Below are positions 5,220-23,664 of a stretch of DNA of 64,000 bases, one piece after another. A program made the position numbers and the translations under genes. The stretch spans positions 186,001 through 250,000 of the forward strand of contig JANQQU010000012.1 in NCBI GenBank assembly GCA_028284905.1, read 5' to 3'. The notes under the pieces are model-generated. The model was not told the origin of the DNA. It was given only the letters and a program-made list of their open reading frames with translations, and ran no database searches. Within the stretch, counting starts at the first letter, position 1. Every line of letters starts with the position of its first letter. The DNA comes from Calditrichia bacterium (lineage in GTDB: Bacteria; Calditrichota; Calditrichia; RBG-13-44-9; J075).

Positions 5220-5475
5220 GGTATTTCTCCTCGGGTTATTGATTTGATGATTGATTTTTTGATTCTACTTTTATCTCTTGGGAAATTGTTGTTTTACTAA
5301 AATTCGGCAACTTGTCCCGGAAGGTCGGGATTTCGGATTTCGGATTTTCCCGAAGGTGAAACCGATTAGACTAAATTTGCATAATCGGTCTCTACCTACG
5401 GGGCGTTCCGGTAAAAATTTTGCTCGTTTGCAATTTTGCAGTTTTTCTACAGCCTAAAGACCTATAGCCTACAGC
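5220..5475. repeat. C-B spacer with palindromic elements
   Basis: 256 nt without a gene. It holds a half-set of TGATT-type units near 5237-5265, a 21-bp element at 5310-5330 starting ACTTGTCCCG and ending GTCGGGA (an inverted relative of 9158-9178), a perfect 8-bp inverted repeat ACCGATTA (5361-5368) / TAATCGGT (5382-5389), and tandem CCTA-rich units at ~5450-5480. It serves as leader of paralog B and trailer of paralog C. Confidence 0.6.
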
Positions 5476-8400
5476 CTATTTAATCAATATCATCTTCCGC
5501 ACCTGTTCGAACTTTAGCCCGGCACTTAGGTGGTAGAAATACAACCCGCTGGCCACCGGCTGCCCGCTACTGTTTCGGCCATGCCATGTGAGATTATGGT
5601 AACCGGCGGTCATGCTTTCGCTGACCAGGGTATTCACCAACTGCCCGGAAATGTTGTAAATTTTCAGGGTGACATTGGCCGCTTCCGGCAGGGCGAACTT
5701 GATCGTTGTTGCCGGGTTGAACGGATTGGGATAATTTTGTTCCAGCACGAAGCTGCTGGGCAAGGCATTGCCATTTTCACCGTCTTTTCGCAAGCCGCGC
5801 CCATGCTCCAGGGCGATGCGGGCATCTTCCCAGGCATCGCGGTATTCTTTTACCGCCAAGTCGTGGTCGCCGGCAGCGATTTCCTCCTCAGCATCGGCCA
5901 TGTCCGCTTCCGCCTCGGCGATACGGTCATCGACTTCCGGATTGCCGGCATACTCCTGCGCTTCGGACAGCTTCACTTCCGCAAGCATTTTCGCCAGATC
6001 GACGATTTCGTTAATCTCGTCCGTGGCGTTTGCGCCGTCTGCTTCCGCATCCTGCAACTGCTCCACCGCGTCTTGCAAATCATCGAAACCGGGTTTGATA
6101 TCCCCTTCGTTGAAATCATCAATCGCATCGTCTAATTGCTCAATCGCATCTTCGAAATCGGCATTGGCTGCGCCGGAATAGCCACCGTTATCGATCAAAT
6201 CCTGGATATTGGCGATGGCAGCGTTAACATCATCTTCCGCATCCATGCCCTGGGCGATGGCGCTGCCGAGATGGATGGCACGCTGTAATTCCTTGCGGGC
6301 ACTGGCCAGGCGGCGGATGGCGAGGTTGTAGTTGCCGCCGGCCAGTCCATCGAGGTAATCCTGGTAAAAATCATTGGCGTCATCGATATAACCGTCCACT
6401 TGCGGATTACCGGCATAGGCAGCGGCGTTGTTTTGTTCATCGTTGACAATGTTATCCGCTAACTCGACAATCGCATCAATTATTGCCTGCACATCTGCGC
6501 CCTCGTCTGCCGCATCCATCAGGTCGTTCATGGCGTCTTCCAGGTCGTCGTAGGCTTCCTGTGCATCGTTGCCGTTCAGATCGTCGATGGCCTCCTGCAA
6601 ATCATCCTGGGCATTTTCCAGATCGTTGCTGGCCGCCGGGGGCAGGCCGGGATCGTTGAGCAGGTCGCTGATATCGCCGATCACATCATCCACCGGATCG
6701 CCGGGCTGGCTGCTGCCATCCAGTTTCCAAAGCTCAATGCCATATAAATTATGTTCTGCGCCAAAATATAGGGCATTATCAAACACGATCATGCCTTTTA
6801 TACCCGCTCCTCCCGGGCCGGGAATAAGGTCTGCTACCAGCACGGTGCCGCCGGCTGTGCCGTCGCTTTTCCACAGTTCTTCTCCGCTATTACCGTCATT
6901 CGCACGAAAATAAAGTTCATTGTTAAAAACAATTAGCCCGCTTGGCGACCCATCTCCGCCTGAATTAATATCCGCGACCCGCATGGTGCCGCCGGCTGTG
7001 CCGTCGCTTTTCCACAGCTCAATCCCACTGCTGCCATCATCAGCGCTAAAATAGAGTGCATCGTTAAAGACGACGAGGTCGGTCGGGTTGCTGCTGCCAC
7101 CGGAATTGATATCTGCTACCATCATAGTGCCACCGGCTGTGCCGTCGCTTTTCCACAGCTCAATCCCGCTGCTGCCATCATCAGCGCTAAAGTAAAGGGT
7201 ATCTTTGAATATCGTTAAAAAGGAGGGACTGGCCGACCCGCTGCCAGAATTGATATCTAACGCCATCATGGTACCGCCTTCCGTGCCGTCACTCTTCCAT
7301 AGTTCTTTGCCGTTTATCCTATCATTGGCGCTAAAATAGAGGCTATCATTAAATACGATTAAATTGTCCGCAAAAGAATTGCCGCGGTAACCGCTTCCGG
7401 TAGCAATGTCCTTTAACATGGAAGTACCATTTTCCGTGCCATCGCTCTTCCAAATCTCTGTTCCGTTTGTCCCGTCATTGGCGCTAAAGTAGAGGCTATC
7501 ATTAAATACGGTTAGATTCTCAGGAAAAGAAGCATTGATACCGGGCCTAAGATCAATCACCAGTTCCGTGCCGGCAGCCGTGCCGTCACTTTTGCGAAGC
7601 TCCAGGCCGGCGGCTTCATCCGATGCGCGAAAGTATAGCATATTATTAAATACGGTTAAAAAAGACGGGGAAGAACCAAAAGCGTCGCTGGGAGAAGGGT
7701 CCGGTACAATCGTCAAAATGTCTGCTACCAGTGCTGTGCCTCCGGCCGTGCCGTCTGTTTTCCAGAGTTCGTTGCCGTCGATACCGTCATTGGCTGCGAA
7801 ATAGAGTTCGTTATTAAAAATCGCAAAATTGCCTGGCGAAGCATCATTGGTTTCGGTATTAATATCCGCTACCAGCATGGTGCCGCCGGCTGTGCCGTCG
7901 CTTTTCCAAAGCTCTTTCCCGCTAGTACCGCTGGTTGCGCTAAGGAAGAGCTGGCTATTAAAAACGGTTAATTCCCGGGGGCGAGAGCTCGAAAAGCTGG
8001 TATTAATATCGACTGTCAGGATGGTACCACTCTCCGTGCCGTCGCTTTTCCAGAGTTCTTCTCCACCAGTGCCACCACTTGCGCTAAAGTAGAGGGCATT
8101 ATTGAAAACGGTAAGTGCAACCGGATTGGAGCCGCTGGAGCCAGGTCTAATATCTTTTACCAGCTCCGCATTGCCGCTGTCGCCATTTGTTTTCCAAAGC
8201 TCAGCACCTGTTGTGCCATCACTTGCACGGAAGTAGAGCGCATTGTTGAAAATCGTGAAACTGGCCGGGTTCGATCCTCTTGAACCGGGACGGATATCTT
8301 TTACTAACACTGCATTGCCGCTGGTGCCGTCGCTTTTCCATAGTTCGTTGCCGCCGGAGCCTCCTCTGGCATTAAAATACAATGCGTTGTTAAAGACGGT

Positions 8401-9123
8401 TAAATTATTTGGAGAAGAACTGCGATAACGTTGGGGATCAATATCCACCAGCAGCATGGTGTTGGCAAGCGTGCCGTCGCTTACCCACAATTCGGTGCCA
8501 ATTTCGCTATCGCTACCGCGGGCGCTAAAGTAGAGCTTGTTATTGTACACAACCAAATATCTGGGAGAAGAACTGCTGCCGCCGGAGCGAATATCTACTG
8601 CCAATTCTGTGCCGCCGGTCGTGCCGTCGCTTTTCCATAATTCTTCGCCGTGGGTATCATCATCTGCCTGAAAGTAGAGCGTATCATTGAGGATCGCAAA
8701 ATCTTGCGGATTACTACCCTCGCTACCGGAATTAATATCTTTTAACAAGATCGTGCCGGCAGCCGTGCCGTCGCTTTTCCAGAGCTCCCTTCCATTGATC
8801 CCGTCATTTGCCCGAAAGTAGAGCGCGCCATTAAAAGCAAATAACTCATCGACTTCTGATTCACCGGACTTTTCCCTGTCATTACCAGGAAAAATGTCCG
8901 TGACACGCATTGTGCCGCTCTCCGTGCCGTCGCTTTTCCAGAGCTCACTTCCATAAATGCTGTCCGTCGCGAAAAAATAGAGGGTTCCGTTTAGCTCGAC
9001 AAGATCACGCGGTTCGGAATCCAGCGTCGTGGTATTAATATCGAGCAGCAATTGCGGGGCTTGGCTGTAGGCCGCTGTAAAAGCGAATAATAAGAATAGG
9101 GTAATCCGTAAAAAGTTATCCAT
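5476..9123 (-). CDS. Secreted ELWxxDGT propeller / helical stalk / sorting-tail protein (paralog C)
   Basis: 1215 residues, ATG with AAAGGAGAGG just upstream. Residues 1-21 are a signal peptide (ITLFLLFAFTAAYSQ). Residues ~22-805 carry a long series of ELWKSDGT units (each ELWKSDGTxxGTxLVxDI ... FNNxLYFxAxDG), likely one or more beta-propellers. Residues ~816-1119 are the duplicated acidic helical stalk and ~1120-1215 the type IX sorting tail (NYPNPFNPATTIKF, VASGLYFYHL, VRKMILIK). The head type matches paralog A, so A and C are the closest pair in head architecture, while B lies between them with a different head. The protein is predicted to be exported across the outer membrane and anchored or released there. 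No catalytic motif is visible. Confidence 0.88.
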   Translation of the reverse strand: MDNFLRITLFLLFAFTAAYSQAPQLLLDINTTTLDSEPRDLVELNGTLYFFATDSIYGSELWKSDGTESGTMRVTDIFPGNDREKSGESEVDELFAFNGALYFRANDGINGRELWKSDGTAAGTILLKDINSGSEGSNPQDFAILNDTLYFQADDDTHGEELWKSDGTTGGTELAVDIRSGGSSSSPRYLVVYNNKLYFSARGSDSEIGTELWVSDGTLANTMLLVDIDPQRYRSSSPNNLTVFNNALYFNARGGSGGNELWKSDGTSGNAVLVKDIRPGSRGSNPASFTIFNNALYFRASDGTTGAELWKTNGDSGNAELVKDIRPGSSGSNPVALTVFNNALYFSASGGTGGEELWKSDGTESGTILTVDINTSFSSSRPRELTVFNSQLFLSATSGTSGKELWKSDGTAGGTMLVADINTETNDASPGNFAIFNNELYFAANDGIDGNELWKTDGTAGGTALVADILTIVPDPSPSDAFGSSPSFLTVFNNMLYFRASDEAAGLELRKSDGTAAGTELVIDLRPGINASFPENLTVFNDSLYFSANDGTNGTEIWKSDGTENGTSMLKDIATGSGYRGNSFADNLIVFNDSLYFSANDRINGKELWKSDGTEGGTMMALDINSGSGSASPSFLTIFKDTLYFSADDGSSGIELWKSDGTAGGTMMVADINSGGSSNPTDLVVFNDALYFSADDGSSGIELWKSDGTAGGTMRVADINSGGDGSPSGLIVFNNELYFRANDGNSGEELWKSDGTAGGTVLVADLIPGPGGAGIKGMIVFDNALYFGAEHNLYGIELWKLDGSSQPGDPVDDVIGDISDLLNDPGLPPAASNDLENAQDDLQEAIDDLNGNDAQEAYDDLEDAMNDLMDAADEGADVQAIIDAIVELADNIVNDEQNNAAAYAGNPQVDGYIDDANDFYQDYLDGLAGGNYNLAIRRLASARKELQRAIHLGSAIAQGMDAEDDVNAAIANIQDLIDNGGYSGAANADFEDAIEQLDDAIDDFNEGDIKPGFDDLQDAVEQLQDAEADGANATDEINEIVDLAKMLAEVKLSEAQEYAGNPEVDDRIAEAEADMADAEEEIAAGDHDLAVKEYRDAWEDARIALEHGRGLRKDGENGNALPSSFVLEQNYPNPFNPATTIKFALPEAANVTLKIYNISGQLVNTLVSESMTAGYHNLTWHGRNSSGQPVASGLYFYHLSAGLKFEQVRKMILIK

Positions 9124-9157
9124 TTTCCTCTCCTTTGGATATTGGGTGATTTCGTGA

Positions 9158-9227
9158 TCCCGACGTCTCGGGACAAGTTCCGGTGATTGGTTGATTGGGT
9201 GATTTTTATCTTTTCAATCACCCAATC
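9158..9227. repeat. Intergenic inverted repeats between paralogs D and C
   Basis: Perfect 12-bp arms GATTGGGTGATT (9193-9204) and AATCACCCAATC (9216-9227) flank an 11-nt loop ending in CTTTTC. The arms belong to a run of drifting 7-8 bp units (GGTGATT type on one side, AATCACC type on the other). A second motif, TCCCGA...TCGGGACAAGT at 9158-9178, lies just before. No U-run follows on the minus strand, so a simple intrinsic terminator for paralog D is not well supported. Confidence 0.7.
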
Positions 9228-9250
9228 ACTCAATTTTCAATCCCCAAATA

Positions 9251-12200
9251 TTATTTCATGAGTATCATCTTCCGCACTCGCTCAAATCCTTGTGCTGAGC
9301 TTGCCGAAGGGCTGGCTTTGAGGTGGTAGAAATACAGGCCGCTGGCAACGAATTGCCCACTGCTGTTTTTGCCATTCCAAACCACATTGTGGTAGCCGGC
9401 CGCTATATTTTCGTTTACCAGCGTATTTACCAGCTGCCCGGCTACGTTGTAGATTTTCAGGGTTACCCGGCCCGCTTCCGGCAGGGCGAATTTGATAGTT
9501 GTATTTGGGTTGAATGGATTCGGGTAGTTCTGTGCCAGCGTATAGGTTTTGGGCAGAGCAACGGTATTGCCGTTTTCAGCTTTCCGCAGGCCGCGCCCAT
9601 GTTCTAGGGCGATGCGGGCATCTTCCCAGGCATCGCGGTATTCTTTCACCGCCACATCATGATCGCCGGCAGCAATTTCCACGTCGGCATCGGCCATGTC
9701 TGCCTGGGCATCGGCGACTTTATCATCTACTGCCGCATTGCCTGCGTATTCTTGCGCTTCCGCCAGCTTTACCTCGGCGAGCATTTTTGCCAGATCGACA
9801 ATTTCGTTGATCTCATCCGTGGTAACTGCACCGTCTGCTTCAGCATCCTGCAACTGCTCCACTGCGTCCTGCAAATCATCGAAACCGGGTTTGATATCAC
9901 CTTCGTTGAAATCTTCGATGGCGTCGTTTAATTGCTCAATCGCATCTTCCAAATCGGCGTTGGCATTGCTGGAATATCCTCCGGTGTCGATAATGTTCTG
10001 GATATTTGCAGCAGCAGCGTTGATATCATCTTCCGCATCCATACCCTGGGCGATGGCGCTTCCGAGGTGGATGGCGCGCTGCAATTCCTTGCGAGCACTG
10101 GCCAGACGGCGGATGGCGAGATCAAAATTGCCATCTGCTAATTCATCGAGATAATCCTGGTAAAATTTATCAGCATCGTCAATGTAATCATCCACTTGCG
10201 GATCACCGGCAAAAACAACGGCGTTGGTCTGTTCTTCAGCGACAAGCACTTCCGCCAGATCGACGATGGCGTCGATGATCTCCTGCACATCAGCGCCATC
10301 ACTGAGGGCATCCATCAGCTCGTCTACCGCTTCTTCCAGGCCTTTATAAGCTTCCTGCGCATCGTTGTCCTGGAAATCTTCCACGGCACTGTTCAATTCC
10401 TCGCAAGCATCTTCCAGGTCCGCAATCGCCCCGGTGGGAAGGTTCGGATCGTTGAGGATTTCCAGCACGTCGGACATCACATTATTGACAATATCGTCCG
10501 GTTCCGCTTCTTCACTCGGCGGAATGTATAAATCCATACCGCTGACCGATTCAACCCCGAAATCACCAATAACGGTACCGACGCCGCTGGTTTTATCGAT
10601 CGCGATCAGTTCCTCGCGTTTGGAGCCAAAAAGGTTGCCCTCGGCGTCAAAATGAATATCCTGGGTGTTGCTGCCCAGTCCGGTGGTGCCAAGCAGGGTG
10701 GGCGCGCCATTGGTTTTGTCGATTTTGTAGATTTTATCCCCGGTGCCGGATGCATAGAGGGTGCCGTCCGTCGGATCAAAATCCATTCCGACAATTACTT
10801 CGCCTATAGAACCGACCACCGTTACATCACCGGTTGCCGGATCGATCGTTACCAGCTCTTCACTATCTCTGCCGATAGCATAGAGAACATCATTTTCATC
10901 GAAAGCCATCGCCGCGTAAACATCACCCAGATAGCCGATGTACTGGAAATCCCCATCGGCGGCACTGATGACGAAAAAATCATACTCCGTATTGGCCGCA
11001 TAAATAATTCCCTGGGAGTTAATGGCGATTGCCGGATAACCGGCATCCTCTCCCTCCAGGATGTCGCCGACCAGAGTGGCGTAGGGGGTGTTCGTTGTGT
11101 CGATAGTATATAATTTGCCATAATCATCATAGCCGGTTGAAGCATAGCATACGCCGGGAAGTGCCGGCGCCAGTGCAAAGGCGCTGAGGAAAACTTCCCG
11201 GTTACCGGGATAAATTTCATCGCTCTCTATGATCACCAACATGGTGTCTCTACCGGCATCCAACGGGGTATAGACGACATCGAATGACAGTGTTGCCCCC
11301 GGGGAAAGCTGTGCTGGCAGGGTTGGCAGATTGCTGAGCGTGAATTCACCAGCGGGGATTGAGATCGTATTAACCGTCACTGGCGCATCCCCCAAATTCA
11401 TAACGGTAGTGGACTGTGTTTGAGGGGTATTTGCCACTGTCAAGTAAGACAAACCCGGTTGAAGGATACGAAGATACCCGCCGGATGGATTGGAGATATC
11501 CAACTCTAATCCTTCAATACCATTCTCCGCAAACAGCAGTGTGTCTGTGCTACTGCCATCAAATTTTGTCTGAACGATTAAGTAATCCAGCGGCCAATCA
11601 GCACTTTCAGCCCAATAAATGTTTTCATTGAGCGCATCTATCGCAAGCTTGCGCGGATGGTTCGGGCCATCAGCAATTGTTTCCAACTGGCTACCGTCCA
11701 GATTGATACGATAGACCTTGTCTTCCCGGCCACCAATTAAATATATTTTTCCGGAAATTCTTTCAATGATCATGTCCTCTACGAAAGGAATGTTGATAAG
11801 GCTTTCCTCGTTAGTGCCATCCAGCGCCATGCGAGAGATAGATGATCTGGAATACCAGTATAATTTTTCTGAAACAGGATCGATTTCGATTAGTTGCGGT
11901 CGAATGCTAAGAATGCTGCCGATATCGCGCAGCGTCACGGTGTTGCTACCATCCAGGTTGGTACGTTTAAATTGTCCGAGTACAACCCAGTACAATTGAT
12001 TGGCAACAGTATCGATGACCATATCAGTGTTGGACTGATTTGCAATTTCAAAAACAATGGTTTCTAACCCGCTCCCATCAGGATTTGCAGATTGAATGAC
12101 ATCATATTTTTGTCTGTTGAGCCAATAAATTTTGCCACTTCTTTGGTCAACTTCAATGGCATGCGCTTCCCCGCTGCCGATAATTCCTTTCCGATTACCT

Positions 12201-13114
12201 CCATCAAGGTCCATCTCTTCGATTTTTTCTGAATAAGACCTTTCATTACCGACATATGCCTTGCCGGTAGTGAAATTTATTGCCAGTCCTGTTGGCCTGA
12301 AAGTGACTGCATCATACGCGATGACTTCGGCATTATGCCCATCGAGATCTGCCCGGCGGACTCGCTTTTTATTAGGCTCAGTCCAATATATTTTATTCGC
12401 CCCCGGGTGAACCGTAATAATCGATATGGTACTTGAAATATCGGCAATCGGCAGGTTTTCCAGGTTGCCGCCGTCAAAATCGAAGCGTTGGAGGACTGAG
12501 CTTGCAATGTGATACCAATACATTTTTTCATTAATGAAATCTACCGCAAATCCCCTGGTGGTAGATTGGGTAAAACTGATTAAATCTTCCATGTTATCGC
12601 CATTGAGGTCCGCCCGCCGGATTTTATCTATTTCCCGCCAATAGATCTTCCCATTGTCCGGATCGATTGTGAGGTATCCGGTGCTGAATAAATTATTTAT
12701 TATTTCCTCCGGATTGCTGCCATCAAGGTTGCAACGGAATATTTGGCCAGCGGTTGACCAGTATATTTTTTCGCCGGTCGGATCAACCGCCAGGCCGCTT
12801 ACTCTGCTATCTGTTGGTAAGTTGATGATATCAATGCCACTACCATCCAGGTTAGAGCGCCAAAGAAGCTCTTGGTTTCTATGATCATGCCAATAAATTT
12901 TCTGATTAACAGAATCGATGGCAATATGCCCGGGCTGGTCCACTTGCACCTGCACTATCTTGGCATCGGAGCCGTCTGTATTGGCGGACATAATAAGATC
13001 ATTTTCGTGAATATTTTCCGACCAGTAAATTTTGTTTTGCCCGAATAGCGGTATCATTAAAATCAAAAAAATCAGCATGGTTAATGGTTTGCTGTATAAT
13101 TCCTTGTTCATCAT
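9251..13114 (-). CDS. Secreted YWTD propeller / Ig-like / helical stalk / sorting-tail protein (paralog D)
   Basis: 1287 residues; start ATG at 13114 (or the next codon) behind GAGGAGAAGG. A signal peptide covers ~1-26 (MLIFLILMIPLFGQ). Residues ~27-545 hold LDL-receptor class B-like units (KIYWxE, RRADLDG, LAIDxxxGKIYW), i.e. YWTD propellers. Residues ~555-650 look like an ASPM-SPD-2-Hydin type Ig domain (VTVNTISIPAGEFTL, LSPGATLSFDVVYTP). Residues ~655-870 are a second propeller-like segment (LYTIDTTNTPYATLVG, GTLYASGTGDKIYKI). Then follow the duplicated stalk (~882-1185) and the type IX tail. The tail has a net six-residue insertion (SPSASSAQG) just before FERVRKM that the paralogs lack, encoded by a repeat-like DNA segment. 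It is the first gene of the array, 456 nt after the LuxR-type gene. Confidence 0.87.
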   Translation of the reverse strand: MMNKELYSKPLTMLIFLILMIPLFGQNKIYWSENIHENDLIMSANTDGSDAKIVQVQVDQPGHIAIDSVNQKIYWHDHRNQELLWRSNLDGSGIDIINLPTDSRVSGLAVDPTGEKIYWSTAGQIFRCNLDGSNPEEIINNLFSTGYLTIDPDNGKIYWREIDKIRRADLNGDNMEDLISFTQSTTRGFAVDFINEKMYWYHIASSVLQRFDFDGGNLENLPIADISSTISIITVHPGANKIYWTEPNKKRVRRADLDGHNAEVIAYDAVTFRPTGLAINFTTGKAYVGNERSYSEKIEEMDLDGGNRKGIIGSGEAHAIEVDQRSGKIYWLNRQKYDVIQSANPDGSGLETIVFEIANQSNTDMVIDTVANQLYWVVLGQFKRTNLDGSNTVTLRDIGSILSIRPQLIEIDPVSEKLYWYSRSSISRMALDGTNEESLINIPFVEDMIIERISGKIYLIGGREDKVYRINLDGSQLETIADGPNHPRKLAIDALNENIYWAESADWPLDYLIVQTKFDGSSTDTLLFAENGIEGLELDISNPSGGYLRILQPGLSYLTVANTPQTQSTTVMNLGDAPVTVNTISIPAGEFTLSNLPTLPAQLSPGATLSFDVVYTPLDAGRDTMLVIIESDEIYPGNREVFLSAFALAPALPGVCYASTGYDDYGKLYTIDTTNTPYATLVGDILEGEDAGYPAIAINSQGIIYAANTEYDFFVISAADGDFQYIGYLGDVYAAMAFDENDVLYAIGRDSEELVTIDPATGDVTVVGSIGEVIVGMDFDPTDGTLYASGTGDKIYKIDKTNGAPTLLGTTGLGSNTQDIHFDAEGNLFGSKREELIAIDKTSGVGTVIGDFGVESVSGMDLYIPPSEEAEPDDIVNNVMSDVLEILNDPNLPTGAIADLEDACEELNSAVEDFQDNDAQEAYKGLEEAVDELMDALSDGADVQEIIDAIVDLAEVLVAEEQTNAVVFAGDPQVDDYIDDADKFYQDYLDELADGNFDLAIRRLASARKELQRAIHLGSAIAQGMDAEDDINAAAANIQNIIDTGGYSSNANADLEDAIEQLNDAIEDFNEGDIKPGFDDLQDAVEQLQDAEADGAVTTDEINEIVDLAKMLAEVKLAEAQEYAGNAAVDDKVADAQADMADADVEIAAGDHDVAVKEYRDAWEDARIALEHGRGLRKAENGNTVALPKTYTLAQNYPNPFNPNTTIKFALPEAGRVTLKIYNVAGQLVNTLVNENIAAGYHNVVWNGKNSSGQFVASGLYFYHLKASPSASSAQGFERVRKMILMK
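9288..9311. repeat. Short palindrome-like element inside the paralog D tail
   Basis: The segment has CCTT/AAGG ends around a GAGCTT core and resembles short dispersed repeats with a CTTCGACAAGCTCAG-like core known from many bacterial genomes. It lies in frame and explains the SPSASSAQG insertion that paralogs B and C do not have. The identification as a dispersed element is inference from pattern only. Confidence 0.45.
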
Positions 13115-13991: not shown

Positions 13992-16900
13992 TCAAACACC
14001 AGAACGCGCTTTCCGATAAGCAGACGGCGACATCCCATGCTTTTTCCGAAAAACTTTCGTAAAGTAATTCGGGGAATTGAAACCGGACATGTAAGCGATT
14101 TCCGAAATTGTGGCAGCATCTTTCCGGATTAATTCCTCCGCGCGTTGCAGGCGAATGGAAAGAATAAACTCGCCGGCGTTTAGGCCGGTAATCGCACTGA
14201 TTTTCCGGTGGAACTGACTGCGGCTCATTCCGGCGGCATCGGCCAGTTGAGGTACGCTGAAGTTTTCGTTCTCAAGATTGTCGTTGACAATCTTCAGGGC
14301 TTTTTCCAGAAAAACTTTGTCCATTGAACTGATCTCAATAGCATCCGGTTTAAGTTCTGGCATCTCCCTGATCTTCGCCAGTAATTTTTGGCGCTGGTTA
14401 ATCAGATTGTGCACCCGGGCGAGCAGCTCTTTGGGGTCAAAAGGTTTGCTGAGATAATCATCGGCGCCGGTTTCCAGTCCATGAATTTTATCCGCTTGTG
14501 AAGCTTTGGCTGTGAGTAGAATCAGGGGAATATGGCTGGTGCGTTCATCGGTTTTCAAGGCATCGCAGAGCTGATAACCGTTCATTTTCGGCATCATCAC
14601 ATCGCTGATAATGATATCGGGAATCACCTCCCGGGCAGTTTCCAGGCCCGCCTGCCCATTCGCAGCTTCGATAATGTTAAACGTACCGGAAAGATCTGCG
14701 AGGCAGCTGCGCAGGTAAAACCGAAAGTCGCTATGATCTTCAACCAGCAAAATGATTTTAGCTTTTTGCGGATCCTGCCCATTATCTAATTCTGCATTTT
14801 TTCGCACTCCGCTTTTAGAAGGGGAGGAAAGCGGCATATCAGTTACATTCGCTTCATAAATATTTTCCGAGACTGGATGGACTCGCTGGGCAATGGTAAC
14901 TGATCCGGCGATATCCTCCGAGGGGAGATGCGCCTTCCCCAGGGGGAAATGAATTGTAAATGAGCTCCCTTTCCCGATTGTGCTGTTCACTTCGATTTCC
15001 CCATAGTGCCGTTCTACCAGATCTTTACAGAGTGCCAGACCAACGCCAGTGCCTTCATATTCCCTGGTCGATGAGGCATCTGCCTGGTAGAATCGGTCGA
15101 ATATGTGCGGCAGACGCTCGGGAGAAATACCAATACCGTTATCTGAGACGCGAATTTGCAGAAATTGGGGCTTTGCATTTAGGATTCCCTGAAGGGGCAA
15201 GTCGGAAGTGGGGCGAACTATTTCAACTTCTACAGTGATTTTTCCATTTTTCGAGGTGAACTTCATCGCGTTGGAGAGCAGATTATTAACGATCTTTTCC
15301 ATGAAATCCCGGTCAAAATAAAATGGTGTCGGGGATTGATGGATCGTTTCCACAGTTTCGGAAATAATGATTTGTAATGTTATCTCTTTCCGTTCCGCCC
15401 AGGAAGAAAATCCCATGGTCAGTCCTTTCAGGAAGGCGGCGATATCTCCCGGGGCTGCGTGGAGGGGGAGGCGATTGGCTTCCAGGCGGGATAGATCCAG
15501 CAATTGATTGATTAGATGAAACAGTCGCTGCGCATTCCGTTGAATAATGCTGAGCTTTTGCCGGGATTTTGCCGGTGTAATTTCTTCGAATAATTGTTCT
15601 ACCGGCCCCATAATCAGCGTGAGTGGTGTGCGAAATTCGTGAGAGATATTGGTAAAAAAACGTGTCTTCAAACGGTCGAGCTCTTTCAGTTTATCCGCTT
15701 CCCGCCGGTCCTGTTCACTTTTCAAGTGCTCCAGTTCCAGATCATGCTTGAGCTGTTGCCGGTTTCTTTCATAGCGGCGAATACCGAAAAATGCGCCCAG
15801 CAGAAAAAGCCCGTAGAGGAGATATGCCCACCAGGTTTTCCACCAGGGCGGGGTAATGATAATTTGTAATGCGGCACCGCTTTCGTTCCAGACGCCATTG
15901 CTGTTCGCCGCTTTTGCCCGAAAAGTGTAATTGCCAGGAGGCAAACCGGTATAATGGGCGCTACGACGATTTCCATTCTGAACCCAGTCTTTATCATACC
16001 CATCCATCTTATAAGCATACTGATTTTTTGCCGGAGCGCGAAAATGCAACGCTATCATTTCAAATGTCAGGGTATTTTGGTCATGCGCCAGGGTGAGTTT
16101 TTTGGTTAAAGAAATTGGCTGGGTCAAGGGAGAATCTGCTGAACCCGGCAGAAGTGGCCGATAATGGACCTGGAGCTCGTTAATCATTATCTGCGGGGCA
16201 TCTGTTTCTACAGTCAGGCCATCCGGGCGAATAATGTCAAACCCTTTGGGGCTGGTAAAAATTAATTCTCCCTGATTACTCTTGAAGGCATTCTGCCCGT
16301 AAAAAAAGCTGTAATCCTCTCCATGTAAGCCATCACCCGCAGTATAAGTTTGAATCTTCACCGGAGTTCGCTGATCGGTAGATAAAGAAATTTTTACCAC
16401 GCCACGATTACTGGCCAGCCACAAATTGCCGGCATCGTCATCTAAAATTGAAGAGACCACGTTACCGGGTAATCCTTCCCGGCTGGTATAGTGGCTGAAA
16501 GTGTCCGCCTCGGTATCGAGGCGATTAAGTCCCCCGCCATTGGTGCCAATCCAAATATAGCGTTCGGGCAATGCCGGATCGGCCAAAACGGCAAGCACCT
16601 GCCCATTATTCAAACTATTGCCGTTGGATGATGTTTGATAGTTTTTTATTTCCCGGCTAATACGGTTATAGCGGATCAAACCAAAATTCGTCCCCACCCA
16701 AAGCAACTCATCACTACCTTCATCGATCGCATAAATGTAATGTTGTTCACTATTCCGCGGGAAGGTGGCGATTGGATGTTCCTGAAACGTGTTGTTGCCG
16801 GGGGTGAATTCATATAAAATGCTTTGACGGCCAATCACATGCGAAATTTTTGGTTCAACCATTGAGCGCTCGGAACCCGCCCAGATATGACCGCGACGAT

Positions 16901-18434
16901 CTTTGCTGAGAACGGTAATATTATCCTGGGCGACAAGGGTATCTGCATCTGTTTGGGGGAGAAAATGAGATTTTATAACCTCTTTGACCGGATCATAATA
17001 AATAATACCCTGAAATTCACTGCCGAACCAAAGATCACCATTACGGTCTTCCAGCATGGTATTAATAAATGCCCAGTTTGGTTGACCATAAGCCGGTAAT
17101 AAATTTACTTGTTTCACCGTTCCGTTATTACGGTTGCCCCGGAAGATATTTTCGGTAACCAACCATAAATTCCCTCGAGAATCCGGGTATGTAAAGCGTT
17201 GGTTGAATGCGGAAGCATTGGCAATAGCGGATAAATCCGGATGATAAGCAGAGAAACGTTCTTTTAAAGGATCATAGAGATGTAAGCCGGTGCCGCTGCC
17301 CAGCCAGATCAGGCCGCTGCGGTCCTGATAAACTGCCCACATAGCAGCATCGAAGAGAGATCTCGGGGGGGCTTGTGGTCCTCCCGCGTAGATCTCGCGA
17401 TAATTTCGATATTTTCCGGTTTGCGGATTAAACATCAATAATTCAACAGCGCCATTGAAGCTGGCAATCCAGATTTCCGATCCAATATCGGTCGATATTT
17501 CCGCAATACCCTGTTCCGCTGATAAACCAATGCCTTCTGCATCCGGAAAAGGAAATTGCACCATCTGCCATTGGTCGCCAGTTTTTTCCAGACGAGTGAG
17601 AGCGTTGTGTTCCAATACCCAAAACGTCCCATCGGTTGCCGTCAAGAATCCGTGAATTACTGAAGTGCTGAAGTCAAACTGTTGATTGTTGGGGCCGGAT
17701 AAAGATCCAAAAGACAATTGAAGTTGCGTTTTTGAGGTGAGGCTGGAATAATCGCTAACCAAACCAAGGCCAAGGCCGGTGCCTATCCAGAAATTGTCCT
17801 GCGCATCGAAGTGTAACGCGGTGACGGCATTGCGGCGATGGAGAGAATCTTCCGGCATCATTGTAAAACGATTCTGCCGGAAAGATCGAAAATGACCGCT
17901 CGCTGCTTGTTGGGTTTCGTTGCTCGCGATGGTAATTTGATAAAGGCCGTTTTTACTGCCTACCCAGATGTTGCCGGCGTTGTCTTCACTAATCGCCAAT
18001 ATCCAATTTCGGAGGGAGGAGGCAGAATTTTTTCCGTCTAAATAAATGCGTTGGAAAAGGCCATTCTCGGGATAATAACAATTTAACCCTTCAATGGTGC
18101 CGACCCATATCCATCCACGGGAATCTTCAAAAAGGCAACGGACATTGTTCGCAGATAATGAGGTTGAATCATAGGATAAATGCTCGAAAGTATGGAAAGA
18201 ATAACCGTCATAACGAACCAGTCCGCCAGTTTCACTGCCCAACCACAGGAAACCCTGGCGATCCTGAAGAATGGTGCGAATCGATTTTTGGCGAAGGCCT
18301 TCTGCCGGACCAAATTTTTCCAATCGGAAATGATTGGTTAACACCGTGGTGTTATCCTCATTCCAGGTTAAATTTTGAGATGCACCCGGTAAAATGAGGA
18401 TACAGCAAAGAATGAATATTCTGAGGTAATTCAT
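13992..18434 (-). CDS. Hybrid two-component system sensor (propeller-kinase-receiver-AraC)
   Basis: 1480 residues with the complete Bacteroidota-type hybrid layout. A signal peptide covers ~1-19 and two-component regulator propeller repeats ~20-760 (LWLGSETGGLVRYDG, WIGTNGGGLNRLD). A Y_Y_Y domain follows at ~780-860, then a transmembrane segment at ~866-884. The HisKA domain has phospho-accepting His932 in SHEFRTPL, and the ATPase domain shows an N box near 1050 and DNGIG near 1098. The receiver (~1225-1345) has Asp1278 and Lys1330, and the AraC-type DNA-binding domain is ~1377-1480. It should sense an extracytoplasmic ligand and act directly as a transcription factor. In Bacteroidota such proteins usually control glycan-use loci; no SusC/SusD or glycoside hydrolase is present here, so the target is open. 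It lies head-to-head with the DUF3303-type gene. Confidence 0.92.
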   Translation of the reverse strand: MNYLRIFILCCILILPGASQNLTWNEDNTTVLTNHFRLEKFGPAEGLRQKSIRTILQDRQGFLWLGSETGGLVRYDGYSFHTFEHLSYDSTSLSANNVRCLFEDSRGWIWVGTIEGLNCYYPENGLFQRIYLDGKNSASSLRNWILAISEDNAGNIWVGSKNGLYQITIASNETQQAASGHFRSFRQNRFTMMPEDSLHRRNAVTALHFDAQDNFWIGTGLGLGLVSDYSSLTSKTQLQLSFGSLSGPNNQQFDFSTSVIHGFLTATDGTFWVLEHNALTRLEKTGDQWQMVQFPFPDAEGIGLSAEQGIAEISTDIGSEIWIASFNGAVELLMFNPQTGKYRNYREIYAGGPQAPPRSLFDAAMWAVYQDRSGLIWLGSGTGLHLYDPLKERFSAYHPDLSAIANASAFNQRFTYPDSRGNLWLVTENIFRGNRNNGTVKQVNLLPAYGQPNWAFINTMLEDRNGDLWFGSEFQGIIYYDPVKEVIKSHFLPQTDADTLVAQDNITVLSKDRRGHIWAGSERSMVEPKISHVIGRQSILYEFTPGNNTFQEHPIATFPRNSEQHYIYAIDEGSDELLWVGTNFGLIRYNRISREIKNYQTSSNGNSLNNGQVLAVLADPALPERYIWIGTNGGGLNRLDTEADTFSHYTSREGLPGNVVSSILDDDAGNLWLASNRGVVKISLSTDQRTPVKIQTYTAGDGLHGEDYSFFYGQNAFKSNQGELIFTSPKGFDIIRPDGLTVETDAPQIMINELQVHYRPLLPGSADSPLTQPISLTKKLTLAHDQNTLTFEMIALHFRAPAKNQYAYKMDGYDKDWVQNGNRRSAHYTGLPPGNYTFRAKAANSNGVWNESGAALQIIITPPWWKTWWAYLLYGLFLLGAFFGIRRYERNRQQLKHDLELEHLKSEQDRREADKLKELDRLKTRFFTNISHEFRTPLTLIMGPVEQLFEEITPAKSRQKLSIIQRNAQRLFHLINQLLDLSRLEANRLPLHAAPGDIAAFLKGLTMGFSSWAERKEITLQIIISETVETIHQSPTPFYFDRDFMEKIVNNLLSNAMKFTSKNGKITVEVEIVRPTSDLPLQGILNAKPQFLQIRVSDNGIGISPERLPHIFDRFYQADASSTREYEGTGVGLALCKDLVERHYGEIEVNSTIGKGSSFTIHFPLGKAHLPSEDIAGSVTIAQRVHPVSENIYEANVTDMPLSSPSKSGVRKNAELDNGQDPQKAKIILLVEDHSDFRFYLRSCLADLSGTFNIIEAANGQAGLETAREVIPDIIISDVMMPKMNGYQLCDALKTDERTSHIPLILLTAKASQADKIHGLETGADDYLSKPFDPKELLARVHNLINQRQKLLAKIREMPELKPDAIEISSMDKVFLEKALKIVNDNLENENFSVPQLADAAGMSRSQFHRKISAITGLNAGEFILSIRLQRAEELIRKDAATISEIAYMSGFNSPNYFTKVFRKKHGMSPSAYRKARSGV

Positions 18435-18594: not shown

Positions 18595-18837
18595 TTGATA
18601 AAATACATGGTTATCGAATATTTTAAACCGGGGAAGAAAGCCGCGGTGTACGAGCGATTTCATCGAGAAGGGCGATTTTTACCGAAGGGTTTACACTACA
18701 TCAATAGCTGGATAGAATTGGACGGCAATCGTTGTTTTCAATTGATGGAAACGGATAATGCCGCGCTCTTCGAAGAGTGGATTGCTCATTGGGCGGATTT
18801 AGTCGACTTCGAAGTTGTGCCGTTGGAAAAAAGGTGA
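18595..18837 (+). CDS. DUF3303-type small protein
   Basis: 80 residues. The pattern YMVIEYFKPG, AVYERFHREGR, LPKGLHYINSW, CFQLMETD and WADLVDFEVVPL matches the DUF3303 family (alpha/beta-barrel-like small proteins with no known function). The chosen start is TTG at 18595: GAGGG sits 5 nt upstream, whereas the first ATG at 18607 would have a spacing of 17 nt. It is monocistronic on the plus strand, divergent from the hybrid sensor gene and convergent with the 555-residue membrane-protein gene. Confidence 0.75.
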   Translation: MIKYMVIEYFKPGKKAAVYERFHREGRFLPKGLHYINSWIELDGNRCFQLMETDNAALFEEWIAHWADLVDFEVVPLEKR

Positions 18838-18997
18838 GTTCGTTGATCGTTGATCGTTGGCCGTTCTAATTGACCATCCGGAAAAACTCGTTGGCGCAAC
18901 ATCCTTGGACCGAAGAAGTTTGAATCCAATGCCTGATCCTATTGCGGCATTCGGGATTGTATCGGACTAACGAGCAACGAACAACGATCAACGATTA
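18838..18997. repeat. Heptamer-built inverted repeat in a convergent spacer
   Basis: CGTTGATCGTTG at 18841-18852 is mirrored perfectly by CAACGATCAACG at 18982-18993, 129 nt away. Both arms are made of drifting 7-bp units (CGTTGAT on the left; ACGAxxA on the right). The right arm overlaps the stop codon of the 555-residue protein gene (18988-18990). It may serve as a transcript end or a mobile palindromic element. Confidence 0.6.
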
Positions 18998-20655
18998 ACG
19001 GATAAAAACGTCTTATCCTCCCCAAGCAGAAGTCGAAGCAGCCCCTGCACCGATGCATCAAAATTAGGTTCAGAAGAGATTAAGCGAACCGTTGCATCCA
19101 CTACCTGCCGGTTTGGAGAATTTGAGGGCGTCTGTGCCCAAAGCTGCTGAAAGGTTTGATTGAGAAAGTGGCGATCCGTTGTTTTATCCACAAGAAATAC
19201 AATTTGCGATAGGGGAACGAGGTGTAATAATTGTTCGATCTCATATATGCAGCCGCGTTTCCGTGGAGAAAATCCCCGTAGGTCCATCAAAACGGCATCG
19301 CTCTCTGCGGCCAGTTTACGCATGGTCATCCGCCAGGTGTCGTTGTAGCAAAAAAATTCGTTAACCCGGTAAAGGCCATCAGGGTCTGAGCGGCGATCCA
19401 GTGTTGCCAGTCGATGCTGCAAATCTGCCTCATCCTTAACGAACTGCCGGGATAATCTTCCGCTGATATAATCCAAAAATTCATGAGGCTCAATTGCGGT
19501 TGTTACCAGATCCGGCCCGGAAATCATATTAATATTCCCAATTCGCCGCCACCATTTCGAGAAGATATCAAAAAACTGTGCGCTGCGGTTGCCAAGTGCA
19601 AATACTCGTAATAGAAGCAATTGTTTACCATCATCTTTAATGGCACGGGATCGTAAATACTTAAATCCGGTATTGGCGATTATTTTGTAAGCGGCAAAAG
19701 CGACCGGCCCGCTAAAGATCCAGTACCAGCCTTCAAATGTAAAATTAATGGGTTGCACAACTGCGAATAACAGCCAAATCGCATCGATGCTAATCGCCTG
19801 ATCACTGAACTGTTTGAGATGATATTTTTTCCCAAGGACACTCAATAAGCGATATCCGAAAAAGCTAAAAATCAGAAAACCGCTAAATAAAATCAGGAAG
19901 AAAATGACATATGCATTTAAACCAACCGGTGCTGCCAGTTGAACGATCAACTCTAGCAGGGAACTATTACTGGCAACAACTTCCACGGCGATAAATGAAC
20001 CAATAATTGCCACTATCAAAAAAGCGAGTACCAGAGGACCAACCGCACGAACTTTCCGCCTGAGGAATGCCAAGAGCAGAAGCGTGCCGGGACCATTCAC
20101 ATAGAACCAAAGGAAAAGCAATTGAAAAATGGTTGTTTGGCCGGGGTTTCGGAACAATGCGAAAATTGCAGCCAGCATAAAAACAAGCGCATACCCCCCG
20201 AAGAGGATCTTTAGTTGCGGTTTTGAAAAACCGGTCGACAGCCAAAGTGTGAGTATTACCGGCCAAATATAACAGGCGAGCAAAAAGAAAAAACGCCCCT
20301 GTGAATATCCGGCGATTAATTGCCAAACGATGGTTAATAAAATCGCATAAACCGACCCGGCAAAGAGATATACCAGCGCTGCGGAGCGATTCGCCTGCTT
20401 TGTTCTTTTATAAATCGTGCTATTATTAGCGTTCAGTGTTGATGGTGATAATTCCATCACGATTAGGGGATCAGTGGGGCGGCTTGAATCTATAAGTTGC
20501 TTTTTAGGCCGGGCGGAACTCTGGCCGATATTTTTTCGCATGCCTTTACGAACTGCCAGGCTGTAACGTTTTAATATCCAGCGGGAAACAATTGCTGTTG
20601 CAATTGCAGCAAATATAATGATAAGCGGCAAAACGCCGGTTAATGTAACGGACAT
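18988..20655 (-). CDS. Multi-pass membrane protein with C-terminal Rossmann-like domain (Y)
   Basis: 555 residues, ATG with AAAGGAATG upstream. Residues ~5-27 and ~90-340 contain about eight hydrophobic segments (e.g. ALVYLFAGSVYAILLTIVW, LVLAFLIVAIIGSFIAVEVV). Residues ~345-545 form a soluble part with conserved blocks: LLLLRVFALGNRSAQFFD, NINMISGPDLVTTAIEPHEFL, YRVNEFFCYNDTWRMTMRKL, AVLMDLRGFSPRKRGCIYEIEQLL, VFLVDKTTDRHFL. The strand-helix pattern suggests a Rossmann-like or TIR-like fold, but I cannot assign it. It is paralogous along its whole length to residues 1-~560 of the next protein upstream. It is the last of three minus-strand genes, 46 nt after the fusion gene. Function unknown. 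Confidence 0.85.
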   Translation of the reverse strand: MSVTLTGVLPLIIIFAAIATAIVSRWILKRYSLAVRKGMRKNIGQSSARPKKQLIDSSRPTDPLIVMELSPSTLNANNSTIYKRTKQANRSAALVYLFAGSVYAILLTIVWQLIAGYSQGRFFFLLACYIWPVILTLWLSTGFSKPQLKILFGGYALVFMLAAIFALFRNPGQTTIFQLLFLWFYVNGPGTLLLLAFLRRKVRAVGPLVLAFLIVAIIGSFIAVEVVASNSSLLELIVQLAAPVGLNAYVIFFLILFSGFLIFSFFGYRLLSVLGKKYHLKQFSDQAISIDAIWLLFAVVQPINFTFEGWYWIFSGPVAFAAYKIIANTGFKYLRSRAIKDDGKQLLLLRVFALGNRSAQFFDIFSKWWRRIGNINMISGPDLVTTAIEPHEFLDYISGRLSRQFVKDEADLQHRLATLDRRSDPDGLYRVNEFFCYNDTWRMTMRKLAAESDAVLMDLRGFSPRKRGCIYEIEQLLHLVPLSQIVFLVDKTTDRHFLNQTFQQLWAQTPSNSPNRQVVDATVRLISSEPNFDASVQGLLRLLLGEDKTFLSVNR

Positions 20656-20701
20656 TTCATTCCTTTCTGGTTATCAGCTAAGGATATTGGCGACGATAGT
20701 G

Positions 20702-22978
20702 TCAATCAACCAGTATGTCAGCATATAATACTATTTGCGCTTCCAGTTGCGGGGCAAATAGTTGCATCGCTTGTTCTATTACAATGGCCATGGCAGGATC
20801 CTGCCGGGACATTTGACGGTAGAATGGCAACATCTGGCGCACTTGTTGGCGCATTGCCGTACCAGTGCTATTGAATGGCTGCCAATCCCCGCTTTGCGCA
20901 GCTGGGAGTACTTCCGCCAGCCAACGTATTTCCTGACCCAGGAGGTAAACATCCGGGAGGCCATTTTCCATATTTCGGGCAATATTGTAGATCTTTTTTT
21001 GATCTATATCGATTTTCTCTGCTCGTGCCCTGATATTAGAATAGTTTATGCCTGGCAGGGCATTTACACCCTGCCTGATAAGAGCGCTTCCAAGTGCATT
21101 GGCACAGCGAATAGCATCGCCATCAACAGAAAAAGCTGAACCATGCTCCTGAAGCAGCTTTTCCAGTTCACGGTTGGGGTTCATCGGGTTTGAGAGTAAA
21201 TAAGCCCGACCCAATAAGCGGGCCGCTTGTATGGTGAAAATTTTAGTCCTCTCTTCTGAACGATAAAAAACTTGTGAGGATTGACTATCGGAATATGCCG
21301 GCACAAGAAGAAGCTGCAATAATGCCTGAACAGAGACATCAACTCGCGATTGGATAGAAATAAAACGTATTGTCGGCTGTTTCGAATGTTTGTTCGGTGA
21401 GTTCGGTGACATATTTGCCCAAAGCCGCTGAAAAGTTTCGTAGATAAAACTGTGCCGGAATGTTTCATCAGTGATAAAAACCAGCTTGCGCAGTGGAACC
21501 AGATTCAGCAATTGTTCAATTTCATAAATACAGCCGCGCCGAAGCGGAGAAAATCCTCGTAAATCCATTAAAATATCATCACTCTCGGCGGCCAGTTTGC
21601 GCATAGTCATTCGCCAGGTATTATTGTGGCAAAAAAACTCGTTTACCCGGTAAAGCCCATCAGGGTCGGGCTGCCGGTCGAGCGCCGACATACGAAGGTT
21701 CAGGTCATTTTCGTCTTTCACAAATTGCCGGGAAAGTTTACCACTGATGAAGTCGAGAAATTCATGGGGCTCAATAGCGGTGGTTACCAGATCCGGCCCG
21801 GAAATCATGTTTATATTGCCGATATGGCGCCACCATTTTGAAAATTGATCAAAGAAGCGGGCACTGCGTGAATTCTGTGCAAATACCCGTAATAATAGAA
21901 GTTGCCGGCTTTCACCTTTCGTTGCTAGCAAATGTTTAAATCCGATATATACAACAAGCTTATATGCTGCAAAAGCAATCAAGCCTGCAAACACCCAATA
22001 CCATCCGGCAATAACCAGGTTAACCGAGTGAATCATTGAAAATAGTAGCCAGATAGCGTCAACTGTAACCCCTCGATCGCTAAATTGTTTCTGACGATAC
22101 TTTTCACCAATAATATTCAACAAGCGATAGCCGAAAAAACCGAAGATCAGGAAACTGCTGATTAGAATAAAGATAAAAATTAAATTCTCTTCCAATCCTA
22201 TAGCTGCGGCAGAAGGAACTTTAATTGTTAATAGATCGGTATTCTCCCCAATAACTTTTAATGATGTAAAGGTCCCTAAAATTGCAACAAACATGAATGT
22301 GAGTACCAATGGACCGACAGCCCGGATCTTCCGGCGCAGAAAAGCCAATATTAGCAGCGTAAATATGCCATTACCAAAAAAAAGTGCTATAAAAATTAAC
22401 CAAAAATAATCGCCCTTCCTGGTAGGATCTTGGGACAATGAAAGAAAACTGTCATTTCCGCTTTGTTGTGTAAAAATATATATCATTGTCAATATTAAGA
22501 GAACAGCATAACTACCAAACAGCAGCTTACCTCTGGCGTTAAAGTAAGCAGTTGCTAACCAAAGTGTTAAGACAGCTGGCCAAATAAGGTATGCAAGCAT
22601 AAAGAAAAACCGCCCCGGAGAATACCCTGTTGCAACCTGCCATACCAGGTTTAATATTAGAACGTAGACCAATCCACCGAGAAAATATATCAACCCTGTT
22701 GAACGATCGGATTTGCGTATTAAATTATAAACCTCGTTTTCTTCTGTTCCGGAAGCGATAGAAGAGAACATTTTTAAAGTTAATGGCGATTCGGGATCGT
22801 GGGTTGATTTATCAGGGAGGACGGGAGCCGTTGGTATTGTGGCTCCCTCAATATTGTGACGCATTTTTTTGCGAACAGTCCGCCTGTACCATTTTAACAA
22901 CCAACCGGATACAATTGCAGTTGATATTGCACTCAAGAAGATTGTTAATAATAACACGTCGGTTGCAGGCATGGTCAT
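20702..22978 (-). CDS. Membrane protein Y fused to the lipoprotein-type domain X
   Basis: 758 residues; ATG at 22978 with AAAAGG 6 nt upstream. Residues ~1-560 repeat the whole plan of the 555-residue neighbour: about eight membrane segments, then MISGPDLVTTAIEPHEFLDFISG, YRVNEFFCHNNTWRMTMRKL and ILMDLRGFSPLRRGCIYEIEQLL. Residues ~582-758 are an extra domain homologous to the mature part of the 218-residue lipoprotein encoded just upstream (AARLLGRAYLLSNPMNPNRELEKLL, AIRCANALGSALIRQGVNAL, VYLLGQEI, WQPFN, LPFYRQMS). It is therefore a Y-X fusion. No recognised family name. It is second in the three-gene cassette, 29 nt after the lipoprotein gene. The two versions of X appear to be placed on opposite sides of a membrane. 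Confidence 0.85.
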   Translation of the reverse strand: MTMPATDVLLLTIFLSAISTAIVSGWLLKWYRRTVRKKMRHNIEGATIPTAPVLPDKSTHDPESPLTLKMFSSIASGTEENEVYNLIRKSDRSTGLIYFLGGLVYVLILNLVWQVATGYSPGRFFFMLAYLIWPAVLTLWLATAYFNARGKLLFGSYAVLLILTMIYIFTQQSGNDSFLSLSQDPTRKGDYFWLIFIALFFGNGIFTLLILAFLRRKIRAVGPLVLTFMFVAILGTFTSLKVIGENTDLLTIKVPSAAAIGLEENLIFIFILISSFLIFGFFGYRLLNIIGEKYRQKQFSDRGVTVDAIWLLFSMIHSVNLVIAGWYWVFAGLIAFAAYKLVVYIGFKHLLATKGESRQLLLLRVFAQNSRSARFFDQFSKWWRHIGNINMISGPDLVTTAIEPHEFLDFISGKLSRQFVKDENDLNLRMSALDRQPDPDGLYRVNEFFCHNNTWRMTMRKLAAESDDILMDLRGFSPLRRGCIYEIEQLLNLVPLRKLVFITDETFRHSFIYETFQRLWANMSPNSPNKHSKQPTIRFISIQSRVDVSVQALLQLLLVPAYSDSQSSQVFYRSEERTKIFTIQAARLLGRAYLLSNPMNPNRELEKLLQEHGSAFSVDGDAIRCANALGSALIRQGVNALPGINYSNIRARAEKIDIDQKKIYNIARNMENGLPDVYLLGQEIRWLAEVLPAAQSGDWQPFNSTGTAMRQQVRQMLPFYRQMSRQDPAMAIVIEQAMQLFAPQLEAQIVLYADILVD

Positions 22979-23007
22979 GCGTTACCTTTTCTTTGATTTC
23001 GACTTTT

Positions 23008-23664
23008 TTACTTCACAAGCATGTTTGCATAAACCACTACTTGTTCCTCGATTAAGGGGCCAAACTGTTCCATTGTTTGTTCGAAAATTGCGGATATTGT
23101 GGGATCCATTTGGCTCATTTGGCGATAGAATGGCAGATATTGCCTCGCTTGTTGGCGTTGCATGGTTCCGGTTGTATTAAATGGCTGCCAGTTGCCTTGT
23201 TCTGCGGCTGGTAATACCTTGGAGAGCCAAATCAATTCTTCACCCATGATATAAACATCTACGGCACCGCTGGTCATGCTATTCGCTATCTGCCGGGCTT
23301 GATCGCCATTCGCACCCATTTGTAATGCACCGCCATAAGCATCATTGTAGCTCATTTCAGAAAAAGCATTTACCCCTTGCCGCATCATAGCTGTCCCCAG
23401 GGCTTTCGCACAGCGAATGGCGCTACCATTTTCCTTGAAAGCAGACCGGTTCTGCTGGAGAAAATCTGCCAGCTCCCGAGGGTCATTCATCGGATTTGCC
23501 AATCTGAAGGCCCGGCCAAGCAGGCGAGCGCTTTCCGGGGAGCAGGTTTGAACCTTTTTTGAAGCACTGAAATAGTTTTGCGAAGCACTGTTATTATCTC
23601 CCCCGCAGCTTGTAAAAAACAATATTAGAAGCAAGCATATGAATTGAGTAAATTTTGAAGCCAT
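23008..23664 (-). CDS. Lipoprotein with domain X
   Basis: 218 residues; ATG with GGAGGG about 8 nt upstream. Residues 1-20 are a lipoprotein signal (LLLILFFTSC, lipid-modified Cys20 expected, then GGDNN). The mature part from ~43 onward (SARLLGRAFRLANPMNDPRELADFLQ, AIRCAKALGTAMMRQGVNAF, DVYIMGEELIWLSKVLPAAEQ, NWQPFN, YLPFYRQMS) is helical and homologous to the C-terminal domain of the next gene's product. It is the first gene of the cassette; 29 nt separate it from the fusion gene. The family is not recognised. It is predicted to be anchored at the outer or inner membrane facing the periplasm. Confidence 0.82.
   Translation of the reverse strand: MASKFTQFICLLLILFFTSCGGDNNSASQNYFSASKKVQTCSPESARLLGRAFRLANPMNDPRELADFLQQNRSAFKENGSAIRCAKALGTAMMRQGVNAFSEMSYNDAYGGALQMGANGDQARQIANSMTSGAVDVYIMGEELIWLSKVLPAAEQGNWQPFNTTGTMQRQQARQYLPFYRQMSQMDPTISAIFEQTMEQFGPLIEEQVVVYANMLVK

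Follow-up and report, generated by a model that had tools for sequence, protein, structure and literature searches.

A membrane protein family with a probable TIR-DrHyd-SLOG-like domain in a mosaic gene cassette of a Calditrichia bacterium

Introduction

TIR and nucleoside deoxyribosyltransferase (NDT) enzymes carry their catalytic Glu after strand 3, and the DrHyd superfamily takes in the nucleoside deoxyribosyltransferases as well as DNPH1. Within this superfamily, NDT (PF05014) and DNPH1/RCL carry the register N/D-x-G-[TC]-x-[FY]-E behind strand 3. The same place was reported as defining the TIR-DrHyd-SLOG clade (PMC9503650). DUF4062 (Swarozyc), for which the literature searched gave the only comparable description, is a distant TIR/NDT relative that was shown to act as an NADase in phage defence (PMC13174449).

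Here we describe three genes, designated X, Y-X and Y, in a 64,000-nucleotide stretch of DNA from a Calditrichia bacterium (the window). Y is a membrane protein whose soluble domain shares features with each of these groups. As with bacterial TIR domains (PF13676/PF01582), a gapless 51-column profile match aligns the catalytic Glu, and TIR genes frequently adjoin Y; in contrast to TIR, Y has the strand-1 motif LLLLRVF, lacks SPxxxxSxW and has a multi-pass membrane anchor. Y shares the register of NDT and DNPH1/RCL after strand 3. Compared with NDT, it has Cys for Thr and, six residues before the Glu, Asn (Lys or Arg in both window copies) for Asp, adds a helical insertion of ~50 residues between strands 2 and 3, is anchored by nine predicted transmembrane (TM) segments and occurs in conflict-gene neighbourhoods. 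The DUF4062 NADases resemble Y as distant TIR/NDT relatives, and a membrane part like that of Y was not found described for them in the available portion of the source (PMC13174449). Relatives of Y co-occur with LSDAT-SLOG, SLATT/DUF4231, patatin, TPR-S/MAP3K, nSTAND1 and caspase genes, as in the SLOG/SLATT/TPR-S conflict systems of the Burroughs and Aravind type, whereas the window copy stands alone; Y as a component of such systems was not found in the literature searched.

Results

Three consecutive genes form a mosaic cassette

An initial annotation of this DNA had described a lipoprotein gene, a gene for a membrane protein fused to the lipoprotein domain, and a gene for the membrane protein by itself. 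Open reading frames and cross-similarity confirm that layout. The three genes lie on the minus strand in the reading order X, Y-X, Y, all with intact open reading frames, separated by 29 and 46 bp and provided with Shine-Dalgarno-like sequences. The core motifs quoted in the annotation are present in Y, and so is the soluble part that it had placed at residues 345-545, the boundaries of which are better set at ~340-549. The features are as follows.

23008-23664, minus strand: X, lipoprotein of 218 residues (from the open reading frame and its translation)
23608-23664, minus strand: signal peptide of X with lipobox FTSC|G; the mature part is encoded by 23011-23607
20702-22978, minus strand: Y-X, fusion of 758 residues, a membrane enzyme-like Y with a C-terminal X domain
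21938-22957, minus strand: predicted TM region of Y-X (from hydropathy)
21302-21919, minus strand: putative TIR/NDT-like soluble domain of Y-X, residues 354-559
21521-21523, minus strand: invariant Glu of the Y-X soluble domain, residue 486
20705-21289, minus strand: X domain of Y-X, residues 564-758
18988-20655, minus strand: Y, membrane protein of 555 residues with the soluble domain at its C-terminus
19666-20643, minus strand: predicted TM region of Y, residues 5-330, with 9 TM segments (from family-wide hydropathy and positive-inside counts)
19009-19638, minus strand: putative TIR/NDT-like soluble domain of Y, residues about 340-549
19237-19284, minus strand: active site-like motif DLRGFSPxxRGCIYEI of Y, residues 458-473, conserved in 100% or nearly so of 69 sequences
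19240-19242, minus strand: invariant Glu 472 of Y, aligned with the TIR and NDT catalytic Glu

At 0.43-0.47, the G+C content of the cassette does not stand out from that of the window (0.46), and therefore gives no compositional sign of transfer. A promoter scan did no better than on shuffled sequences.

Duplication and fusion account best for the mosaic

Residues 24-217 of X match the C-terminus of Y-X with 47% identity over 194 residues (E 2e-65), and Y corresponds to the first ~560 residues of Y-X, with 55% identity overall and about 70% in the soluble part. The resemblance between X and Y-X sets in at X residue 24, just past the lipobox, and the Y part of Y-X stops in its last helix (LLRLLL / LLQLLL). 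Identities at first, second and third codon positions are 0.55/0.71/0.41 for the X copies and 0.65/0.78/0.40 for the Y copies. Because third positions agree at only ~40% and second positions at 71-78%, the duplication must be of old date, and purifying selection acts on each of the two copies of X and of Y. A tree built from 69 soluble domains places the window copies nearest to one another (path 0.51; next 1.09), in a region of the tree that is not well resolved. The order X, Y-X, Y is the one expected if an X-Y pair is duplicated in tandem and the two middle genes, Y and X, are then joined, and we infer that this history best accounts for the mosaic.

X is probably a local accessory

The signal peptide of X, ending in its lipobox, marks it as an exported lipoprotein. 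The X domain of Y-X has neither a signal peptide nor a TM segment and follows a Y part whose C-terminus is predicted to be inside, so it is predicted to be cytoplasmic. This arrangement would put the lipoprotein and the X domain of the fusion on opposite sides of the membrane. An AF2 model of X, modest in quality (pLDDT 78, pTM 0.77) and built from two sequences, is all-alpha, and a fold search with X against the PDB gave no significant match. Likewise, X matched nothing in Pfam, NCBIfam and PADLOC, tblastn against plasmids found nothing, and one scan of viral contigs gave no confirmed relative. X did not occur beside Y in any of 67 other Y loci, nor anywhere in the 28 Y-bearing genomes and 39 other genomes of the phylum that were searched. 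Together the results suggest that X is a helical lipoprotein, so far seen only here, and probably a local accessory.

The soluble domain of Y is predicted to be cytoplasmic

Hydropathy averaged over the Y family gives nine TM segments. Loops after TM1, 3, 5, 7 and 9 are rich in Lys and Arg and the other loops poor, and this enrichment predicts an N-out, C-in topology. The soluble domain of Y, an alpha/beta region of ~210 residues, and the X domain that trails it in Y-X are accordingly predicted to face the cytoplasm. One relative (L029:5991-8630) has a signal peptide-like N-terminus and TPR repeats ahead of TM1, which is consistent with the N-out orientation; the protein is a candidate for an external sensor joined to Y.

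Y belongs to an unannotated family in at least seven phyla

A single scan of genome contigs yielded 67 relatives of Y, with 28-59% identity in the soluble domain. The scan alignment carried two synthetic bait rows that steered its patterns to the MDLR and FFCxxDTW motifs; for confirmation of the relatives, the genuine window sequence served as the tblastn query, and later alignments contain real sequences only. They come mainly from Betaproteobacteria and are spread over at least seven phyla (Pseudomonadota, Chloroflexota, Armatimonadota, Acidobacteriota, Myxococcota, Thermodesulfobacteriota and Actinomycetota). Among 40 genomes of the window's own phylum, only that of the window (8.55 Mb) bears Y or X. 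Searches of plasmids and phages by tblastn with the Y domain found nothing, and five scans of viral contigs (four with peptide patterns, one with a DNA pattern) gave no confirmed relative, the three matches of the DNA pattern (L008-L010) being unconfirmed.

Conservation over the 69 sequences reaches 99-100% at LLxLRVF, W369, G373, I378, D382, D424, C436, W441, MDLR (457-460), G468 and E472. The MDLR, GC and E472 positions, sited after strand 3, are conserved in 96-100% of sequences. Neither Y nor Y-X of the window matched Pfam, NCBIfam or PADLOC at threshold, the PADLOC 2.0 models of known antiphage systems gave no match, and a PDB sequence search with the Y profile returned chance matches only. 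The literature searched does not name the family. We therefore regard Y provisionally, as the literature search was incomplete, as a member of a bacterial family that public family libraries have missed.

The soluble domain is probably of the TIR-DrHyd-SLOG kind

Domains of the TIR-DrHyd-SLOG clade have a three-layer Rossmann-like fold with a five-stranded sheet. In an AF2 model (pLDDT 87.5, pTM 0.85), strands and helices alternate in the Y soluble domain and E472 begins the helix after strand 3. Profile comparison by hhalign places E472 on the TIR Glu (score 29.4; 23 TIR sequences) and on the NDT Glu (score 28.8; 14 NDT-type sequences), with the TIR and NDT sequences drawn from the genomes studied. 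Both scores exceed all of 150 column shuffles, which reached at most 22.3 for TIR and 20.9 for NDT; TIR compared with NDT in this way gave 93% probability. PF05014 (NDT) matched 5 of 31 family members, always at the MDLR...GCxxE motif, with a best value of 9e-6; the best relative scored 26.3 bits, just under the curated cut-off of 28.8 bits, and the window Y gave no match. Pfam TIR (PF13676/PF01582) gave no match in the 31 members at E up to 1. A Foldseek search with the model retrieved DNPH1, an NDT relative, with probability 0.99 and TMt 0.58-0.62; all matches fell short of E 1e-3, and by E-value DNPH1 comes behind Ras-like and other Rossmann folds. At the position six residues before the Glu, an Asp in NDT, both window copies have Lys or Arg. 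From these profiles and the model, the domain is probably Rossmann-like and of the TIR-DrHyd-SLOG kind, which would make Y an inner-membrane protein of nine TM segments with such a domain on its cytoplasmic side.

Relatives of Y lie beside conflict genes

We scanned all open reading frames of the 67 loci, many of which are cut by contig ends, for family matches. Conflict genes lie within 5 kb of Y in 19 loci; the other 48 have none, many of these again being contig-cut. By class, the 19 loci hold TIR (13), TPR-S/MAP3K (7), patatin (6), caspase (4), SLATT/DUF4231 (3), nSTAND1 (2) and SLOG (1), and these neighbours are often on the same strand as Y at distances of 4-100 bp, some at 4-60 bp. In an Anaerolineales locus (L028), SLOG, SLATT, patatin, Y, TIR and TIR genes follow one another on one strand, closely spaced. 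Locus L059 reads patatin, TPR-S/MAP3K, Y, TIR, the family names there resting on similarity to Pfam-scanned seeds. L056 is a further relative in an operon, and Propionivibrio relatives show Y-TIR pairs.

Across 28 whole genomes with 172 TIR_2 matches, TIR_2 lies within 3 kb of Y in seven, where 0.25 were expected (P about 3e-9) on the assumption of uniform placement, so that general clustering in defence islands could supply some of the excess. Such clustering, if it lies behind part of the excess, would still put Y in these islands. Members of the Y family thus repeatedly sit close to known effectors or sensors, unlike the window locus, where there is no TIR or other conflict gene near the cassette.

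In four Burkholderiales loci (L063, L068, L071, L074), caspase-like (Peptidase_C14) genes lie 47-615 bp downstream of Y. A TMEM175-type potassium channel gene (L039:8631-9206) lies 13 bp downstream of another relative and is a possible membrane effector partner.

Proposed function of Y and alternatives

We estimate with a probability of about 0.6 that Y belongs to conflict systems, as a membrane-anchored effector or signalling enzyme of the N-glycosidase type, and that the X-Y pair was duplicated and fused in this genome. In such a scheme, the membrane part of Y, or a partner, would sense invasion, damage to the envelope or a similar cue, and sensing would bring cytoplasmic Y domains together. 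The Y domain may then, by means of its invariant Glu, cut the N-glycosidic bond of NAD+ or another nucleotide, and this cleavage would either deplete the nucleotide or make a signal. In many genomes, Y may serve as one module of a conflict system of the abortive-infection type, together with neighbouring TIR, patatin, caspase, SLATT or SLOG genes. The suggestion in the initial annotation of a TIR-like domain in signalling or defence draws real, though not conclusive, support from the position of the motif, the weak NDT and TIR profile matches, the AF2 model with its DNPH1 match and the strong association of the family with TIR and other conflict genes. In all probability the family represents a new branch of defence effectors. 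It is rather unlikely, on our estimate, that Y goes further and represents a distinct, membrane-embedded class among TIR/DrHyd-type immune proteins, in which membrane sensing is coupled directly to cytoplasmic nucleotide cleavage and which is tuned here by a new all-helical X domain, outside as the lipoprotein and inside in the fusion.

The roles of the two parts of Y could also be reversed, with the soluble domain an inactive TIR/DrHyd- or SLOG-like sensor of a nucleotide made by a neighbouring TIR or SLOG protein, and the membrane part the effector, acting by pore formation or disruption. Neighbouring TIRs could supply that signal, some TIR-DrHyd-SLOG domains are sensors (PMC9503650), and the loci also encode membrane effectors, among them SLATT, with a TMEM175-type channel by Y in L039. 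However, E472 and its motif do not vary even among very divergent members, a pattern more usual in enzymes, and at many Y loci no gene that could make a signal is visible; we hold this arrangement to be doubtful. Still less probable is a domain with no relation to TIR and NDT, receiver-like or Rossmann-like of some other sort, which would make Y a membrane regulator in ordinary envelope signalling. An hhalign comparison with 30 receiver domains from the window's genome scored 25.5, near to and slightly under the TIR and NDT scores; the invariant D458 ends strand 3, Foldseek retrieves many Rossmann folds, and a hybrid histidine kinase gene (13992-18434) lies near the cassette. Yet the acidic pair is missing after strand 1 (LLLLRVF), the invariant GCxxE in helix 3 is foreign to receivers, Response_reg matches none of the 31 members at E up to 1 whereas NDT matches recur, and a DUF3303 gene separates the kinase from Y.

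The stoichiometric X:Y envelope complex or sensor put forward in the initial annotation is very improbable. Operon-like spacing, the joining of X and Y in one product and the purifying selection on both copies of each would suit it, but the neighbourhood survey that the annotation called for found no X-Y linkage at the 67 loci or in the other genomes searched, exported X and the presumably cytoplasmic X domain would sit on opposite membrane sides, and duplication with fusion explains the mosaic.

Spread over at least seven phyla, the family appears to comprise membrane-bound relatives of TIR/NDT enzymes, which are central to bacterial immunity. That such a domain is held by a multi-pass anchor would point to activation at the envelope. 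The tight operons of Y with TIR, patatin, caspase and SLATT genes are concrete candidates for phage-challenge assays.

Surroundings of the cassette in the window

One flank of the cassette holds the small DUF3303 gene (PF11746, E 3.9e-25; 18595-18837, plus strand), convergent with Y, followed by the hybrid histidine kinase gene; on the other flank lies a gene for a large secreted protein. Near-inverted simple repeats, AACGATCAACGATCAACGA / TCGTTGATCGTTGTTCGTTG, lie between the DUF3303 gene and the stop codon of Y. The window's genome contains nine TIR_2 matches, all on contigs other than that of the window, and at least 150 response-regulator receiver matches. At 2865-13114 on the minus strand, three consecutive genes encode large secreted-type proteins with LEQNYPNPFNP sorting-tail-like ends, and their translations appear to share a C-terminal helical block.
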